NCBI RefSeq assembly: GCF_007994075.1
Contig: NZ_VIWU01000001.1
Coordinates: 5,270,001 to 5,334,000, forward strand
Length of the DNA: 64,000 nucleotides
Reading direction: 5' to 3'
Origin: Pseudonocardia hierapolitana
GTDB lineage: Bacteria > Actinomycetota > Actinomycetes > Mycobacteriales > Pseudonocardiaceae
Below are positions 692 to 50,640 of the stretch, in pieces (position 1 is the first letter of the stretch; every line of letters starts with the position of its first letter). The notes below the pieces were generated by a model. The model saw only the letters and a list, made by a program, of their open reading frames with translations. It did no database searches and was not told where the DNA came from. Position numbers and translations under genes: made by a program.

Positions 692-1801
692 GTGCAGCTG
701 CGCAAGCTGGTGGTCGGGGCCGCGATGGTGGTCGAGAGCGTCGTGCAGGCGGGGGTGCTGCTCACCCTGCGCGTCCGGGGCCGGCACCTGCCGATGATCG
801 TGCCGTTCATCGGGCACGGCACCACCCGGCGGGTGCGGGTGGGCGGCCGGGTCGTGCTCGGCAGGCCGGAGGCCGCGGCGCCCGCGGTCGGCGTGCCGGA
901 GGCGCCGGAACCGACCCCGCGGTCGCGGCGGGCGGTGCTGCGGGCGACCATCGCGCGCTTCCTCACCGTCGAGGTCCCGGGCGCGGTGGTCGCGGTCAAC
1001 GGCCCCGGCGTGGCGGCCCAGATCCGCGCCGACCGCGACGGCTACCTCGACGCCGTGCTCGACGTCGCCGAGCCGCTGCGCCCCGGGTGGCACGCGTTCG
1101 AGCTGCGGCTGCGCGACGGGGCCGCGGTGTCGGCGCAGGTGCTGGTGGTCGATCCGGCGGTGCCGATCGGCCTGGTCAGCGACGTGGACGACACGATCCT
1201 GGAGACCGGCCTGACCCGGGGGATCGAGTTCGTGCGTGCGACCCTGCTCACCCCGGTGCGCGACCGCACGCCCCTGCCCGGTGCGGCGGCGCTCTACCGC
1301 GCGCTCGTGGAGCCGGCCGACGGCCCGCCCCGGCCCGTCATCTACGTCTCGACGAGCCCGTGGAACCTGCACGAGATGCTGCTGGAGTTCATCGCGCTGC
1401 GGCGGTTCCCGCTCGGCCCGCTGCTGCTGACCGACTGGGGGCCGTCGCACAGCGGCCTGTTCCGGATCGGTGCGCAGGAGCACAAGGGCGGGCTCGTCCG
1501 GCGGATGCTCGAGGAGCACCCGCTGCTCGGGCTCGTTCTCGTGGGCGACAGCGGCCAGCTCGACCCGGAGATCTACGCGGGGCTCGCCCGCGAGTTCCCG
1601 GAGCGCATCCGCGCCGTGTACATCCGCCGCACCCGGCACGCCCTCCCCGGCCGGCTCGCCGAGGTGGACGCGCTGGCCGCCGAGGTCACCGCGGCGGGGG
1701 TGCCGATGCTCGCCGTCGACGACAGCCTGCAGATCGCCGCGCACGCGGCCCAGCTGGGCCTGCTCGACGCCGCCGCGCTCGACGACGTGCAGTCCGGCTG
1801 A
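692..1801 (+). CDS. App1-family (DUF2183) phosphatase-domain protein
   Basis: A 369-residue protein with the App1 catalytic (DUF2183) domain. The HAD-like motif SDVDDTILETG lies near residues 163-173, followed by the family-typical STSPWNL, LLLTDWG, KGG and VGDSGQLDPEIY stretches. In yeast App1 this domain is a phosphatidate phosphatase; bacterial members are mostly uncharacterised, so the substrate is unknown. The first 80 residues hold a hydrophobic, amphipathic segment (VVGAAMVVESVV) that could lie on a membrane. The start is GTG at 692. The TGA stop at 1799-1801 overlaps the first unit of the 22-bp repeat array downstream. Confidence 0.88.
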   Translation: MQLRKLVVGAAMVVESVVQAGVLLTLRVRGRHLPMIVPFIGHGTTRRVRVGGRVVLGRPEAAAPAVGVPEAPEPTPRSRRAVLRATIARFLTVEVPGAVVAVNGPGVAAQIRADRDGYLDAVLDVAEPLRPGWHAFELRLRDGAAVSAQVLVVDPAVPIGLVSDVDDTILETGLTRGIEFVRATLLTPVRDRTPLPGAAALYRALVEPADGPPRPVIYVSTSPWNLHEMLLEFIALRRFPLGPLLLTDWGPSHSGLFRIGAQEHKGGLVRRMLEEHPLLGLVLVGDSGQLDPEIYAGLAREFPERIRAVYIRRTRHALPGRLAEVDALAAEVTAAGVPMLAVDDSLQIAAHAAQLGLLDAAALDDVQSG

Positions 1802-2013
1802 CTCGCCGCGCCGGAATGTCGGACCCGCCGCGCCGGTATGTCGGACTCAACGTGTCGGTATGTCGGACTCGCCGTGTCGGTATGTCGGACTCGCCGTGTC
1901 GGGACGTCGGACTCGCCGTGTTGGGATGTCGGACTCGCCGTGTCGGGACGTCGGACTCACCCGCGAGTCTTGCGTGTCAGCACGGCGAGTCGTGCGTATC
2001 AGCACGGCGAGTC
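1800..2013. repeat. 22-bp GACTC repeat array 1 with central inversion
   Basis: Eight direct units begin with GACTC or a close variant at 1800, 1822, 1844, 1866, 1888, 1910, 1932 and 1954, exactly 22 bp apart. The unit core is GACTCGCCGTG followed by a more variable 11 nt. After a 6-nt centre (ACCCGC) come three inverted units with GAGTC at 1965, 1987 and 2009, again 22 bp apart. The array lies between two convergent genes. Its first unit contains the stop codon of the App1-type gene, and the last inverted unit supplies the stop of the minus-strand gene. Halves of the array pair with each other in the plus-strand transcript. Two related arrays occur at 42657 and 49224. Confidence 0.95.
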
Positions 2014-2916
2014 GTGCGTTTCGGCGGGGTGGGACCGGCGGTTGGCGCGGAGCTTCTGCAGCTCGAAGATCCGCATCCGGCCGGGAGTCGTGGCCGCGCA
2101 CGTCAGCGGGCGTCCGGCGGCGACGTACCGCTCCCGCAGCAGCACCGAGCAGTCCGGATCGGCGAGCTCGACGTGCCAGTCCGTGCTGCCGTCCGGGAGG
2201 TCGTCGCGCACGACGTGCACGAGCCGCAGGTCGTCCACCCCGGTGGCGCCCGTGGCCAGGCGGGCGTGGTGTTGCGCGGCCTGCACCGCGGGCGGCATCG
2301 CCGACCGGCCGCGCACGGCGGCCGGCTCGAGCCGCCCGGCGCGGTAGGCGGCGAGCGCGGCGGGGGCACCTGCCGGGTCGAGCCCACCGAGCGCGTAGCC
2401 GTGCGGGAGCAGCACGACGGCCGGTGCGAATCGGCACCCGCCGACGTGGCTGCATTCCCAGACCGGCTCCGGATCGGCGGCGGCGAGCGCCGCGGCGACG
2501 GCGCGGCCGCGCACCGCGCAGCAGGTGTCGTGCCGGCCGTGGCTGCAGACGAGGGCCAGGGGACCGTCGTAGCGCTTCCCGGGCGTGTCGACGGCCGAGA
2601 CCAGCTCCGACTCGAGGCCGTACGTACCGGTGCGGACCGACTCGTGGCCCGGCCGCGCGTCCACGCGGAACCAGCGGCGAGGCGCGACCCGGCGGGCCCG
2701 GCCCGGACGCCGTACGAGCACCACGCGCCCCTCCCAGTCCGAGAGGGCGTCGGTCACGTCGGCCGGCAGCGTGGTGAGGGCTTGCGAGGGCCACGGCCCG
2801 GGATGCTCGACCAGCAGCCACCGGTCCGCCTGCGGCGCGGTGCCCTCCAGCGGGTCACCCGCCGTGCCCGCGGTGAGCGAGCAGCGGGGCCAGCCGTCCG
2901 TCACGGCCTCCTTCAT
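1999..2916 (-). CDS. Sucrase/ferredoxin-like family protein (paralogue 1)
   Basis: A 305-residue member of the sucrase/ferredoxin-like family (thioredoxin-like fold with a putative [2Fe-2S] ferredoxin module). The cysteine pattern CSHGRHDTCCAV near residues 122-133 followed by VWECSHVGGCRFAP is characteristic. Function is unknown; an electron-transfer or iron-handling role is an inference. The start chosen is ATG at 2916 (MKEAVTDGW); a longer frame to 3162 has low-quality coding content and would overlap terC on the other strand. The last codons (HDSPC, stop) are made of the repeat array. A paralogue with the same cysteine pattern lies at 23066-23938. Confidence 0.85.
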   Translation of the reverse strand: MKEAVTDGWPRCSLTAGTAGDPLEGTAPQADRWLLVEHPGPWPSQALTTLPADVTDALSDWEGRVVLVRRPGRARRVAPRRWFRVDARPGHESVRTGTYGLESELVSAVDTPGKRYDGPLALVCSHGRHDTCCAVRGRAVAAALAAADPEPVWECSHVGGCRFAPAVVLLPHGYALGGLDPAGAPAALAAYRAGRLEPAAVRGRSAMPPAVQAAQHHARLATGATGVDDLRLVHVVRDDLPDGSTDWHVELADPDCSVLLRERYVAAGRPLTCAATTPGRMRIFELQKLRANRRSHPAETHDSPC

Positions 2917-15505: not shown

Positions 15506-15855
15506 GCGACGGGCGAGGCGGGTTCGCGCTTTCCGGGACGCCTCGTGCGTGCTGCGGCGTGAAGGGGTGCGCCGTGAAGGGGTGCGCCGTGAAGGGGTGC
15601 GGAACCTGGGTGCCCGGGACGGGGGGTCCGGGGGGCGAAGCCCCTCCGGGTGGGGTCTGGGGGCTGCGCCCCCAGAAAAAGCGACGGGCGAGGCGGGTTC
15701 GCGCTTTCCCGGACGCCTCGTGCGTGCTGCGCCGTGAGGTTTCTGCGGAACCTGGGTGCCCGGGACGGGGGGTCCGGGGGGCGAAGCCCCTCCGGGTGGG
15801 GTCTGGGGGCTGCGCCCCCAGAAAAAACGACGGGCGAGGCAGGTTCGCGCTTTCC
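15506..15855. repeat. GC-rich repeat block: 109-bp direct duplication plus partial third copy
   Basis: The stretch 15601-15709 is repeated almost exactly at 15747-15855 (offset 146 bp), and part of it (15506-15550) occurs a third time. Within lie three 15-bp tandem units at 15556-15600 (GCCGTGAAGGGGTGC type). Each long copy has a perfect palindrome CTGGGGGCTGCGCCCCCAG (15657-15675 and 15803-15821) followed by A5-A6. It fills the space downstream of the tRNA pair; no gene is seen from 15389 to 15881. Confidence 0.9.
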
Positions 15856-22071: not shown

Positions 22072-22521
22072 TCAGGCGTTGATCTCCTTCTGCCGGCTGC
22101 CTGCCGCGTCGACGGCGATCTTGCGCGGCTTGGCCTCCTCGACGACCGGGATCCGCAGGGTCAGCACGCCGGCGTCGAGGGTGGCGGAGATGTTGTCCAC
22201 GTCGAGGGTGTCGCCGAGGAACAGCTGCCGGGACACCGCGCCGACGGGGCGTTCGGCGACCTGCATCTCGACCTGCATCTCGACCTGCTGATCGGCGACG
22301 GGGCGACGCTCGGCCTTCACGGTGAGCACGTTGCGCTCGACGTCGAGCTCGATCGCCTCCGGGTCCACGCCGGGCAGGTCGAACGCCACCACGAACTCGT
22401 CGCCGGAGCGGTAGGCGTCCATCGGCATCGGGGTGGGCCCGGACCAGCCGCCGGGGGAGGCGCCGCGGACCTGCCGTGTGAGCCGGTCGAGCTCGCGGAA
22501 CGGATCGGTGCGCATCAGCAT
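22072..22521 (-). CDS. Small heat-shock protein (Hsp20/alpha-crystallin)
   Basis: A 149-residue ATP-independent chaperone that holds unfolded proteins. The alpha-crystallin domain runs from about residue 38 (AYRSGDEFVVAFDLPGVDPE) to the conserved DAGVLTLRIPV; an IxI/V motif is replaced by KIAV. A 12-bp tandem duplication gives VEMQVEMQV in the mid-loop. ATG at 22521 follows a GGAGTG-type site. A perfect 14-bp palindrome lies 18 bp upstream. It neighbours a frameshifted DnaJ-domain gene, forming a chaperone cluster. Confidence 0.93.
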   Translation of the reverse strand: MLMRTDPFRELDRLTRQVRGASPGGWSGPTPMPMDAYRSGDEFVVAFDLPGVDPEAIELDVERNVLTVKAERRPVADQQVEMQVEMQVAERPVGAVSRQLFLGDTLDVDNISATLDAGVLTLRIPVVEEAKPRKIAVDAAGSRQKEINA

Positions 22522-37394: not shown

Positions 37395-38507
37395 TGTAGC
37401 GACTCAGGACGTTGTTGACAGTTCGGTCAGCGTGTCGGCTTGATCGAGGGAGGACCTCCGGGCGGAGTGGGTGTGTCTCACGCACTCGCTCCAGGCCAGG
37501 AGGTCCTCGTGGCGCACCGTAACGCCCGCACCACCGTCTTTGCGCGGCGGCTCATCGTCGAACGCTTCCTCGCCGGGTGGCCAGCGGCGCGGATCGCCGA
37601 GCAACTCGGCGTCTCCCGAGCGACGGTGCACAAGTGGGTCCGCCGCTACCGCGAGGAGGGCTGGGACGGACTTGCCGACCGCTCGTCGCGGCCGCACACC
37701 AGCCCGAACCGCGTCGCCGCACAGATCGAGGACCGCATCCTCGAGTTGCGAGCCACCGCGCATCGGGGAGCGGTGTTCCTGGCCGGCGAGCTCGGCCTGG
37801 TCGCCTCCACCGTCGGCCGGGTGCTGGCCCGCCACCAGGTGCCGCACCTGGCCGCGATCGACCCGATCACCGGCGCACCGGTCCGGCGCCGCCACTGCGG
37901 GATCCGCTACGAACGCCCCCACCCCGGGGATCTGATCCACATCGATGTCAAGAAGTTGGGCCGGGTCCCTGACGGCGGCGGCTGGCGGCTGCGCGGGCGC
38001 CGAGAAGCCCGCCAGAGCGGAATCGGGCGCGGAATCGGGCGCGGGATCGGCTACGACTACCTGCACGTCGCGGTCGATGACCACTCCCGGCTGGCCTACA
38101 TCGAAGCGCTGCCCGACGAACGCGACACCACCTGCGCCGGGTTCCTGCACCGGGCCGTGGCCTGGTTCCGTGAGCACGGCGTGCGAGTGCTGCGGGTCCT
38201 GACCGACAACGCCAAGGTCTACCGGATCGGGCAGGACTGGCGGGCGGTGTGTGTCGCGCTCGGGATCCGGCGCCGGTTCACCAAACCCGGCTGCCCCTGG
38301 ACCAACGGCAAAGCTGAACGGCTCAACCGCACCCTGCTGACCGAGTTCGCCTACGCCCAACCCTGGCTGTCCAACCACGACCGGCTCACCGCCCTGGACA
38401 GCTGGGTCGAGCACTACAACACTCGACGCGCCCACTCCGCCCTCGGCGGCCGCCCTCCGATCACCCGACTCGCCGCATGACAGTCAACAACCTCCCGAGT
38501 CAGTACA
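37395..38507 (+). mobile_element. IS481-family insertion sequence
   Basis: Imperfect terminal inverted repeats start at 37395 (TGTAGCGACTCAGGACGTTG...) and end at 38507; 23 of 28 positions match. The left flank CCTAGC (37389-37394) is the target. IS481 elements are known to insert at NCTAGN and duplicate 6 bp. The right copy of the duplication (CCTA, 38508-38511, and GC after 39781) is split by the next element. The transposase is intact, so the copy may be active. Confidence 0.9.
37509..38480 (+). CDS. IS481-family transposase
   Basis: A 323-residue transposase from GTG 37509 (an upstream GTG in frame at 37440 is possible). It has an N-terminal helix-turn-helix (RIAEQLGVSRATVHKWVRRY) and an RNase-H-fold DDE core: DLIHIDVKKLG, RVLTDNAKVY and NGKAERLNRTL. 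A 12-bp tandem duplication gives GIGRGIGRGIG just before the core strand YDYLHVAVDDHSR. There is no frameshift. Confidence 0.93.
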   Translation: MAHRNARTTVFARRLIVERFLAGWPAARIAEQLGVSRATVHKWVRRYREEGWDGLADRSSRPHTSPNRVAAQIEDRILELRATAHRGAVFLAGELGLVASTVGRVLARHQVPHLAAIDPITGAPVRRRHCGIRYERPHPGDLIHIDVKKLGRVPDGGGWRLRGRREARQSGIGRGIGRGIGYDYLHVAVDDHSRLAYIEALPDERDTTCAGFLHRAVAWFREHGVRVLRVLTDNAKVYRIGQDWRAVCVALGIRRRFTKPGCPWTNGKAERLNRTLLTEFAYAQPWLSNHDRLTALDSWVEHYNTRRAHSALGGRPPITRLAA

Positions 38508-41124: not shown

Positions 41125-41165
41125 CTACCGGAGGTAACTTACTCGTGGTAACTTACCGGCGGTAA
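41125..41165. promoter_or_regulatory. Three tandem 13-bp operators, period 14 bp
   Basis: The sites CTACCGGAGGTAA (41125-41137), TTACTCGTGGTAA (41139-41151) and TTACCGGCGGTAA (41153-41165) follow the palindrome TTACC-N3-GGTAA, each separated by one base. They fill the promoter between the TetR and monooxygenase genes. The third is a perfect palindrome. Confidence 0.85.
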
Positions 41166-41185
41166 CCCGTCGGGAGGAGCCGCAC

Positions 41186-42646: not shown

Positions 42647-42656
42647 CCGAACGCGA

Positions 42657-42846
42657 GACTCGCGGTGCTCGAACGCGAGACTCGCGGTGCTCGAACGCGA
42701 GACTCGCCGTGCTCGAACGCAGGACTCGCTGGCGAGTCGGGCATTCGATGCGGCGAGTCCGACGTTCCGACACGGCGAGTCCGACGTTCCGACACCGCGA
42801 GTCCGACGTTCGGACAGGCGAGTCGGGCGTTCCGACGCGGTGAGTC
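42657..42846. repeat. 22-bp GACTC repeat array 2 with central inversion
   Basis: Four direct units (GACTC at 42657, 42679, 42701, 42723, exactly 22 bp apart), a 6-nt centre GCTGGC, then six inverted units (GAGTC at 42734, 42755, 42777, 42799, 42820, 42842; spacing 21-22 bp). The direct units read GACTCGCGGTG plus CTCGAACGCGA. It lies 10 bp after the monooxygenase stop and ends 24 bp before the menC promoter. Same build as the arrays at 1800 and 49224. Confidence 0.95.
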
Positions 42847-42869
42847 CGCGGGCCGGGGTTGGGCGCACG

Positions 42870-47615: not shown

Positions 47616-47646
47616 TTGGGCCGCCTCTTTGGGGCACCCTGATCGG

Positions 47647-49188
47647 ATGACGGACACGACGACCCGCACCGAGAGCCGCACCTTCCGCGGAGCCGCCGAG
47701 GCCGGCAGTCCCCGGCTCGACGCGCTTCCCGGGGTCCACCGCGAGGACGCCGTTCCGCAGCAGGTACTCGAGGTCGAGCGCTTCGACACCGCGGACCACC
47801 GGCTCGCCGCGGCCGGGATCACGCTCGCCGTGCACCGGACCGACGGCGAGCAGCCGCACTGGCGGCTCGACTTCCCGGACGACGACCGCGGCGAGGAGCT
47901 GCGCGTCCCGCTCGCCCCCGACGCACCGCCGGTCCCGGACGTGCCGAGTGAGCTGGCCGAGCTGGTGCGCGGCGTCGTGCGGGACGGCGAGCTGCGCCCC
48001 TCCGGCCAGGTCCGCCGGGTGCGGACGGGTTCGCGGCTGCTGGGCGAGGACGACCGCCTGCTCGCCACGGTGGTCCACGACCACGTCACGGTCGCCACGC
48101 TCGGCTCGTCCACCGAGGGCGCGGCGTGGACCGAGGTGCACGCCCACGACATGTCCGACGGCGGGCTCGCCGAGGCGCTCGAGCGGCGGCTCGGCGAGGC
48201 CGGGCTGAAGCCCGCGACGACGTCGGCGGAGGCCGAGCTGGACCGCCTGTTGCGCCCGCCCGCCCGGCAGCGGCGCGGGTCGGGTGGGAAGCGCATGAAG
48301 CCCGGGACCGCGGGCGCGGCACTCGTCGAGTACCTGGCCGCGCAGGTCGATCGGCTCGCCGCCGAGGACCTGCGTGCCCGGCGCGGCGAGCCGGACTCCG
48401 TGCACCAGCTGCGGGTGGCCGCGCGGCGTTTGCGCAGCGCGCTGCAGTCCTACCGGCGGCTGGTGGACCGCGAGCGCACCGAGCCGGTCGTGGACTCCCT
48501 GCGGGAGCTCGCCCGCTCGCTCGCCCCGGCCCGCGACGCCGAGGTGTTGCACGAGCGGATCCGCGACGGACTCGGCGGCTTGAAACCGGAGCTGCTGCTC
48601 GGGCCGGTGCAGGCGCAGGTCACCCGGCACTACGCGCGCGTGGAGGGGGAGGCCGCTGCGGCCGTGCTCAGCGCGCTGGACGGCGACGAGTACGCCCGCC
48701 TGCGCCGCGATCTCGACGACCTGCTGCAGGACCCCCCGCTCACGAAGCGCGCGGCGCGACCCGCCCGCAAGGAGCTGCCCGCGCACGTCGCGCGGGCGGC
48801 ACGGCGGCTGTCCCGCGCGGTAGAGGTGGCGGTCGATCCCGCCGTTCCGGCCGAGGAGCGGGACATCGCGGTTCACGACGCCAGGAAGGCAGGCAAGCGG
48901 CTGCGCTACGCCACCGAGGTCGCCCGGCCGGCGGTCGGGAAGGACGCGAAGCGGTTCGCGAAGGAGCTCAAGGGGTTCCAGGACGCCCTCGGTGAGCACC
49001 AGGACACCGTGGTGGCCCGCGACGCCCTCCGCGAGCTCGCCACCCAGGCGTCCGGGAAGGGGGAGAACGGCTTCGCGTTCGGCGTCCTGCACGGCCGCGA
49101 TGCCGCCCGCGCCGCGGAGATCGAGGCGCAGCTGCCGGACCTGTGGGCGACGGCCTGGCGCCCCCGCAACCGCCGCTGGCTCGGCTGA
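47647..49188 (+). CDS. CYTH-CHAD domain protein
   Basis: A 513-residue two-domain protein. The N-terminal CYTH tunnel-fold domain runs to about residue 205, but the usual ExExK entry is degenerate (LEVERFDTADHRL follows a variable start). The C-terminal CHAD helical domain spans about 225-510 (VHQLRVAARRLRSAL, VHDARKAGKRLRYATEV). CHAD binds polyphosphate, and CYTH enzymes cleave triphosphates, so a polyphosphate role is likely. ATG at 47647. Repeat array 3 begins 36 bp after the stop. Confidence 0.9.
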   Translation: MTDTTTRTESRTFRGAAEAGSPRLDALPGVHREDAVPQQVLEVERFDTADHRLAAAGITLAVHRTDGEQPHWRLDFPDDDRGEELRVPLAPDAPPVPDVPSELAELVRGVVRDGELRPSGQVRRVRTGSRLLGEDDRLLATVVHDHVTVATLGSSTEGAAWTEVHAHDMSDGGLAEALERRLGEAGLKPATTSAEAELDRLLRPPARQRRGSGGKRMKPGTAGAALVEYLAAQVDRLAAEDLRARRGEPDSVHQLRVAARRLRSALQSYRRLVDRERTEPVVDSLRELARSLAPARDAEVLHERIRDGLGGLKPELLLGPVQAQVTRHYARVEGEAAAAVLSALDGDEYARLRRDLDDLLQDPPLTKRAARPARKELPAHVARAARRLSRAVEVAVDPAVPAEERDIAVHDARKAGKRLRYATEVARPAVGKDAKRFAKELKGFQDALGEHQDTVVARDALRELATQASGKGENGFAFGVLHGRDAARAAEIEAQLPDLWATAWRPRNRRWLG

Positions 49189-49223
49189 CAACCTACGGCG
49201 TCGCCAGGCGTGCAGGAACGTCG

Positions 49224-49591
49224 GACTCGCCACGCACGAACGCCGGACTCGCCACGCACGAACGCCGGACTCGCCGCGCAGGAACGCCGGACTCGCCGTG
49301 TCGAGACGTCGGACTCGCCGCGCAGGAACGCCGGGCTCGCCGTGCCGAGACGTCGGACTCGCCGCGCAGGAACGCCGGGCTCGCCGTGCCGAGACGTCGG
49401 ACTCGCCGCGCAGGAACGCCGAACTCGCCGTGTCGAGACGTCGGACTCACCGTGTTGGAGTGCCGGACTCGCCCGCGAGTCTTGCGTTCCTGCGCGGCGA
49501 GTCTTGCGTTCCCGCACGGCGAGTCTTGCGATCGGGCGCGGTGAGTCTTGTGATCGGGCGCGGTGAGTCCGGCGTTCGGACGCGGTGACGG
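49224..49591. repeat. 22-bp GACTC repeat array 3 with central inversion
   Basis: Twelve direct units (GACTC or variant every 22 bp from 49224 to 49466), the centre GCCCGC, then five inverted units (GAGTC at 49477, 49499, 49521, 49543, 49565) and a decayed sixth. Direct units alternate between two types (tails CAGGAACGCCG and TCGAGACGTCG), giving a 44-bp higher order. Next to the centre, 19 of 22 positions in the flanking units pair in the plus-strand transcript, five as G-U. It lies between two plus-strand genes. Confidence 0.95.
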
Positions 49592-49614
49592 GGGGCCGTG
49601 CGACGATCGCGGGC

Positions 49615-50640
49615 GTGACCGAGACCCGGGATGCCGTTGCCGACCTGCGGCGGATCGCCTTCCTGCTCGAGCGCGCGCACGAGTCGACCTACCGGGTCAG
49701 GGCCTTCCGCACTGCGGCCGCGGTGCTGCGCCGGCGTGACCCGGAGGAGATCGCGCAACTCGTGCGCACGGGGGAGCTGGTTCGGCTCAAGGGGGTCGGG
49801 GAGGTCACGGCGAAGTGCGTGGCGGAGTCGGTGCGCGGTGAACCCCCGGCGTACCTGCAGAAGCTCGAGGCGATCGAGCCGTCGCCGCTCGACCGGGCCG
49901 CGGAGGGGCTGCTGGAGGCGATCTGCGGGGACTGCCACAGCCACACCGACGCCTCCGACGGCGGGTCGCCCCTGCGGGAGATGGTCGAGACGGCGCAGGC
50001 GCTCGGCCACGACTACCTGGTGATCACCGACCACTCGCCGCGGCTGACCGTCGCGAACGGCCTGTCCGCGGACCGGCTGCGGGCCCAGCTGGAGGACATC
50101 GCGGAGCTCAACGCTGAGCTGGGTACCGGGTTCCGGGTGCTCACCGGCATCGAGGTCGACATCAACGAGGACGGGTCCCTCGACCAGGACGAGGACCTGC
50201 TCGCCCAGCTGGACGTCGTGGTCGCCTCGGTGCACTCGAAGCTGCGGATGCCGCGCGCCGAGATGACCGAGCGGATGCTCACCGCCATCGACAACCCGCA
50301 CGTCGACGTGCTCGGGCACTGCACGGGCCGGATGGTCACCGGAAACCGGAAACGGCCGGAGTCCCAGTTCGACGCGGACGCGGTGTTCGCGGCGTGCGCC
50401 GAGCGCGGGGTGGCGGTGGAGGTGAACTCGCGGCCGGAGCGGCTCGACCCGCCGAAGCGGTTGCTGCGCCTCGCGCTCGATGCCGGGTGCCACTTCACGA
50501 TCGACACCGACGCCCACGCCCCCGGCCAGCTCGACTGGCTGCGCAACGGCTGCGAGCGCGCCGCCGAGTGCGAGGTGCCCACCGAGCGGATCATGAACAC
50601 CTGGCCCGCGGAAAGGCTTCTCACCCGTACGCGTGGCTGA
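49615..50640 (+). CDS. PHP-domain protein with helix-hairpin-helix, PolX-like without polymerase
   Basis: A 341-residue protein. The first 80 residues are like the N-terminal HhH domain of X-family polymerases (RRIAFLLERAHESTYRVRAFRTAA, VRLKGVGEVTAKCVAES). From residue 106 a PHP metal-dependent phosphoesterase follows (CHSHTDASDGG, VITDHSPRLT, HVDVLGHCTGR, IDTDAHAPGQL). The nucleotidyltransferase core of PolX is missing. Proteins of this layout are common in actinobacteria; a DNA-repair nuclease or phosphatase is likely. GTG at 49615 lies 24 bp past repeat array 3. Confidence 0.87.
   Translation: MTETRDAVADLRRIAFLLERAHESTYRVRAFRTAAAVLRRRDPEEIAQLVRTGELVRLKGVGEVTAKCVAESVRGEPPAYLQKLEAIEPSPLDRAAEGLLEAICGDCHSHTDASDGGSPLREMVETAQALGHDYLVITDHSPRLTVANGLSADRLRAQLEDIAELNAELGTGFRVLTGIEVDINEDGSLDQDEDLLAQLDVVVASVHSKLRMPRAEMTERMLTAIDNPHVDVLGHCTGRMVTGNRKRPESQFDADAVFAACAERGVAVEVNSRPERLDPPKRLLRLALDAGCHFTIDTDAHAPGQLDWLRNGCERAAECEVPTERIMNTWPAERLLTRTRG

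Follow-up and report, generated by a model that had tools for sequence, protein, structure and literature searches.

MITEs are non-coding inverted repeats in gaps that expand in lineage-specific bursts and are characterized by fixed terminal inverted repeats and target duplication, and minisatellites or VNTR arrays are built of tandem units that duplicate locally. The 22-letter repeat family described here, which is apparently undescribed so far, has as its building block an oriented arm of 22-bp units, each consisting of a GACTCGC core and a 15-nt filler. With MITEs the family has in common that it forms non-coding inverted repeats in gaps with lineage-specific bursts, but its arms comprise 1-12 units, no fixed ends or target duplication were seen, and many elements are one-armed. 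Tandem 22-bp units, local duplication and a 44-bp two-unit period are shared with minisatellites; however, the family is dispersed over the genome and has a common dialect of filler, a polarity and a stop-codon anchor. Like REP/BIME with RAYT, as portrayed in the available parts of two papers (PMC2817692, PMC3733652), it occurs in many extragenic copies per genome with a species-specific sequence, and in head-to-head and tail-to-tail layouts, composite clusters and two-type hybrid clusters. In contrast to REP/BIME, the 22-bp unit is not itself palindromic (single arms are mostly without a fold), direct iteration at 22 bp is strict, the RAYT domain PF01797 has no match in the genome under study, and sister species differ by replacement of the filler in the same gaps; in addition, no GTAG was seen by eye in the units inspected, and a CGTC in the filler of one dialect (A) does not lie beside a palindrome. 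REPINs, according to the available part of PMC3116915, are similar in forming a within-genome population of short mobile-like repeats between genes, but the differences from REP apply to them as well, and an arm of the array analyzed here reaches twelve units. A CRISPR was rejected, since the fillers are related repeats and not unique spacers. An earlier note, made without database searches, had stated that no family with this build was described, and this agrees with the literature, where searches covering few subscription journals brought up no such arrays; nor does the available part of a paper on Kutzneria (PMC4210621) contain anything on such repeats.

The array lies in the genome of Pseudonocardia hierapolitana (G000; 8.86 Mb, single contig), within a window of 64,000 nucleotides (genome positions 5270001-5334000) that contains three mirror-built arrays, the one at 49224..49591 and two sisters. 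In the following, G277 denotes the genome of a sister species, G299 and G307 those of further relatives, and L numbers the sequence stretches that were compared. The features are, in window coordinates:

1800..2019: sister mirror array in a convergent gap, of dialect A both here and in G277
42648..42848: sister mirror array of dialect A; dialect B in the matching gap of G277
47629..49188, plus strand: gene for a CHAD-domain protein, start uncertain (47629 or 47647), with the array after its stop
49189..49223: 35 nt from the CHAD stop codon to the first clear unit, including a degenerate outer unit
49224..49472, plus strand: left arm, twelve 22-bp units of GACTCGC core and 15-nt filler, dialect A
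49466..49481: head-to-head centre GACTCGC-CC-GCGAGTC, 2-nt gap class
49475..49588, minus strand: right arm, five inverted units
49615..50640, plus strand: gene for a PHP / helix-hairpin-helix protein

For the PHP gene the GTG start at 49615 was preferred over the start at 49585 in the ORF list because relatives keep 49615. Short tandem repeats of 12-15 bp occur elsewhere in the window, at 15553-15601, 22257-22288, 38017-38050 and 41126-41166.

The build attributed to the array in the earlier note was confirmed by the sequence, a repeat finder and TRF: 22-bp units, twelve in direct and five in inverted orientation, join at GACTC-GCCCGC-GAGTC (49466-49481), and both flanking genes lie on the plus strand. 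TRF placed a period of 22 at 49212-49473 (11.9 copies) and at 49477-49588 (5.1 copies) and also returned the 44-bp period, and the left arm contains two unit types, mostly in alternation; the fillers of the right arm resemble one of these types but end in CAA. The repeat finder paired arms of 114 nt at 76% complementarity, separated by 134 nt. A hand count from the sequence likewise reproduced the claimed pairing of 19 of the 22 inner columns (14 Watson-Crick, 5 G-U, 3 mismatches), and the observation that the five G-U pairs of the plus RNA become C-A on the minus strand holds for the inner units of this array. When all 73 symmetric columns were scored, 51 were Watson-Crick, 11 G-U, 3 A-C and 8 other.

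The array is far beyond chance and is one copy of a large family. With a unit pair defined as GACTCGC-N15-GACTCGC and the reversed pattern used as control, G000 contains 272 unit pairs (130+142) compared with 0+0 for the control. At least 9 pairs were found in 39 of the 62 genomes of the genus, none in 19, one in two and 4-6 in the remaining two, and at least one match occurred in 116 of 390 genomes of the bacterial family, one or two matches being near the control level. Among the matches listed for 396 genomes sampled across the phylum, a three-unit pattern was found in G000 alone; the 80 titles listed of at least 120 stretches with three units were mostly Pseudonocardia, with Actinophytocola, Lentzea, Herbihabitans, Amycolatopsis, Mumia and Nocardioides as other genera. 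A stricter 40-base pattern had no match in the genome contigs. When TRF was run at 30 PHP-gene loci without any pattern, 17 period-22 arrays with at least 3 copies were recovered, all 17 of which contain GACTC or GAGTC. In genus g8, 22-bp mirror arrays have GACAC/GACTC-type cores and a conserved CTGAGCGTT, and the reversed control itself gave 82 matches in one genome (G069). The GACTCGC core is thus not universal outside Pseudonocardia, and its conservation between genera is partly a selection artefact because the core served as search seed, as the control matches in G069 and this sister form illustrate. The sister form was observed in L265-L282 (genomes G059, G069 and G072), with ends near stop codons, and 22-bp GACTCGC arrays outside the Pseudonocardiaceae were observed in L026 (Mumia) and in L035 and L095 (Nocardioides). 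A plasmid or phage origin was rejected, as there was one weak Azospirillum plasmid match, covering 52% of the query, and no phage match; the plasmid stretch (NZ_CP059454.1:64987-65186), annotated as hypothetical protein, matches half of the array at 71.6%.

Some arms have no partner; others are paired, either head to head, the cores then being about 2, 10 or 22-24 nt apart, or tail to tail, with a distance that varies. The 41 G000 stretches contain 38 arrays of at least 3 units, 31 of them two-armed and 27 of these head to head, and the 40 G277 stretches contain 26 arrays, of which 21 are two-armed and all 21 head to head. A wide set of 142 groups in 120 stretches from many species is one-armed in the majority; its 33 two-armed groups include 14 head-to-head and 12 tail-to-tail ones, a non-uniform polarity that argues against copying of arms. 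Over 201 stretches, the core gaps of 67 head-to-head pairs fall into discrete classes of 0-2 (5 pairs), 7-11 (15) and 20-26 nt (42), with five larger. Of 235 arms with at least 3 units, 115 have an inverted core at most 27 nt from their head. The 37 tail-to-tail pairs of the 201 stretches are separated by 0-1553 nt, and an element with a homologous inner region between such arms was rejected, the spacers having only four short similarities. The unit step is exactly 22 in 597 wide-set steps (next commonest 21, in 30 steps), and the seven core columns have a high information content, which is biased by the seed. The last core of an arm usually precedes GGG (in single arms, the frequency of G at the three positions after this core is 0.88, 0.76 and 0.79). 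Filler identity is 0.72-0.83 within the same arm compared with 0.58-0.68 between arrays, and units multiply locally inside an arm.

Arms lie close to stop codons. By codon-model gene calls made in the present analysis, the head end is at most 20 nt from a called stop codon in 60 of 112 single arms and the tail end in 12 of 112; of 108 arms that face another core, 40 have their outer end this close to a stop. For the remaining 52 single arms, no called stop lies within 20 nt of the head, which speaks against copying to gene ends. Arrays are enriched in convergent gaps: in G000, 16 of 36 gaps with an array are convergent, versus 48 of the 295 others (p 2e-4), and in G277 the numbers are 15 of 25 versus 28 of 195 (p 2e-6). 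Only 3 of the 36 and 1 of the 25 array gaps, respectively, are divergent, and 2 of the 38 G000 arrays of at least 3 units fall inside gene calls. Stretches L023, L047, L084, L091 and L126 were left out of the stop-distance counts and of the wide-set folding described below, the first four being titled Acidimicrobiaceae, Bacteroidia, Planctomycetaceae or Bacteroidaceae MAGs and L126 being dropped for its A+T-rich filler.

In each genome, one filler of its own predominates. Position weight matrices, for which the same units served as training set, gave a clean separation of two dialects, A (GACTCGCCGTGCCGGGACGTCG; 240 of 246 sampled units in G000) and B (GACTCGCGCGCACCCAGACCGC; 85 of 93 units in G277). 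For at least 15 of the 38 G000 arrays, the matching G277 gap also contains an array, of at least 2 units, with flanks about 85-97% identical, the number being a lower bound because the comparison covered only 40 G277 stretches and L142. By eye, 11 of these 15 gaps hold A units in G000 and B units in G277; both genomes have A or A-like units in two gaps and B units in one, and in the remaining gap both dialects are present in G000. At the level of the aligned sequences, this demonstrates that related species have arrays in the same gaps between genes but with different fillers. The CHAD/PHP gap contains an array of at least 2 units in 12 of 27 genomes aligned on both flanks, L169 and L170 being nearly identical among these and the arrays of L144, L145 and L152 sitting in an interval of 590-819 nt, where other genes may be present. 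All five relatives with at least 89% PHP identity carry an array in this gap, and its fillers are A in G000, B-like in G277, G299 and G307, and of other kinds in G285, G301, G310, G287, G326, G268, G315 and G274. By eye, B-like fillers were counted at about 97 of the 100 places listed of 105 in G307 and at 95 of the 100 listed of 182 in G299. Moreover, old and new dialects are found together: in the G277 stretches L241 and L218 the inner units are B and the outer units A, and the G000 stretch L256 has a B array beside an A array. The simplest account would be that A displaced B in the G000 line, a direction that rests on parsimony by flank identity and not on a tree. One 13-bp convergent gap is without array in G000 (L019:899-913) and has arrays at L093:5298-5474, L109 and L117; no target-site duplication was seen by eye in such empty/filled pairs, which again does not favor copying.

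Taken together, we consider it probable that the array is one locus of a lineage-specific, REP/BIME-like extragenic repeat family of the Pseudonocardiaceae whose arms are copied between gene ends. The copying would be carried out by a process that recognizes the core, new arms would land in or next to old arrays, and mirror and hairpin would be by-products of two arms of the same dialect facing each other. Dialect A may in this way have largely displaced B in the G000 lineage, the CHAD/PHP gap included, and the likely effect on the cell would be that of a tolerated, strongly structured stretch of DNA and RNA after genes, which may act as a putative two-way transcription barrier. With respect to the copying machinery, the RAYT (Y1) domain PF01797 has no match in G000 or G277 and a match in 5 of 62 genus genomes, and the reverse transcriptase domain PF00078 has none in G000 or G277 and a match in 36 of 62; for lack of matches in G000, a RAYT and a reverse-transcriptase partner, respectively, were rejected. 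A cassette gene beside the arrays was rejected as well, since no family linked to the arrays emerged when 1522 called proteins from 201 stretches were clustered, and the largest protein groups beside arrays resemble common superfamilies. The search for these two domains and for neighbour families in G000 thus yielded no copying enzyme for the arms. A bolder version of the copying reading is possible but doubtful: oriented 22-bp-unit arms would be written beside stop codons and periodically overwritten genome-wide at the same gaps by a new dialect, through a copying that involves neither RAYT nor reverse transcriptase and reads the heptamer core only, which would constitute a new class of prokaryotic repeats.

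The possibility that no dedicated enzyme is involved, and that replication forks stalled at palindromes switch template between arrays via microhomology of the 7-bp core and thereby spread the current dialect, is consistent with the core common to dialects A and B, with the presence of old and new dialects in one gap and with the lack of Y1 transposase and reverse transcriptase matches in G000 and G277; it appears unlikely to us, however, as it leaves arrays in formerly empty gaps unexplained. Similarly improbable is that the arrays are binding sites for a sequence-specific DNA protein, a nucleoid or boundary factor, which would find GACTCGC every 22 bp, about two helical turns. The exact spacing, the discrete head-to-head gaps and the information in the core agree with such a protein (the information is seed-biased, but the 17 TRF arrays were found without a pattern), yet by itself protein binding accounts neither for the wholesale replacement of filler at the same gaps nor for the local duplication of units, and no candidate protein was identified. 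Somewhat less improbable, though still unlikely, is that the arms serve as two-way terminators or stabilizers of 3' ends by forming a long RNA hairpin in either direction, with selection keeping the arrays in convergent gaps. Their enrichment there and their closeness to stops argue for such a function, as does their folding: among arrays of at least 5 units and at most 330 bp, the 30 folded of 58 two-armed ones had median z values of -5.76 and -6.79 on the two strands (correlation 0.76), and 29 of the 30 (0.97) were below -3 on both. In contrast, the 30 folded of 39 single-armed arrays had medians of -0.67 and -0.92, either strand being below -3 in 0.13 of them, neither the arms nor the centres show covariation, and U-tract terminator-like sites, that is a GC-rich hairpin followed by a T run, numbered 0 at 49100-49700. 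In addition, a terminator function must be dispensable, because 21 of the 62 genus genomes have 0 or 1 pair.

The earlier note had itself proposed an RNA structure that would be under selection on the plus strand, the strand that encodes both flanking genes, and the same argument, in which G-T pairing in REP stems is read as a sign of RNA function, is found in the available part of PMC2817692 or PMC3733652. This proposal is supported by the 11 G-U versus 3 A-C columns of the array, but we regard it as very improbable. Contrary to the predicted advantage of the plus strand, both strands fold about equally when compared with shuffles (plus -260.3 kcal/mol, z -7.03; minus -250.6, z -7.49), although the plus-strand fold is clearly non-random (0 of 100 shuffles as good). 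Nor were the compensatory changes found for which the note had called, the left and right arms being without covariation: filler identity was 0.577 within and 0.585 between arrays in G000 (31 arrays, p 0.69) and 0.676 versus 0.681 in G277 (21 arrays, p 0.59). The two arms of an array thus match because they share a genome-wide dialect, and not through pairwise upkeep of complementarity. Likewise, no significant covariation was found in the central loops (20 long centres in G277 and 11 in G000, best p 0.08). Co-directional arrays, counted with centres of up to 30 nt, had 62 sense versus 47 antisense G-U in G000 (12 arrays) and 13 versus 15 in G277 (7 arrays), a weak pooled difference of 75 versus 62 that amounts to no general sense-strand bias; the G000 sums lean toward the plus-RNA proposal, those of G277 do not, and the bias is local to the array at 49224..49591. 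With equal folding of the strands and no compensatory changes, the proposal is largely refuted by the terms in which the note itself had put it. At gathering score, the only matches to Rfam 15 in the window were two tRNAs, and at 49150-49640 four matches to microRNA precursors were far below their gathering scores (best 38.8 bits versus 197). As a more general warning, a G-U asymmetry seen in a single inverted repeat of this length lends little weight to a function as RNA.

If the copying of arms between gene ends is true, the family would represent a bacterial counterpart of the concerted evolution of satellite DNA, in which the addresses are kept and nearly all of the sequence is exchanged between sister species. 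This exchange would run without either of the enzyme classes looked for (PF01797, PF00078), and the arrays of Pseudonocardia would offer a tractable system for studying how short repeats spread and become homogenized in bacteria.
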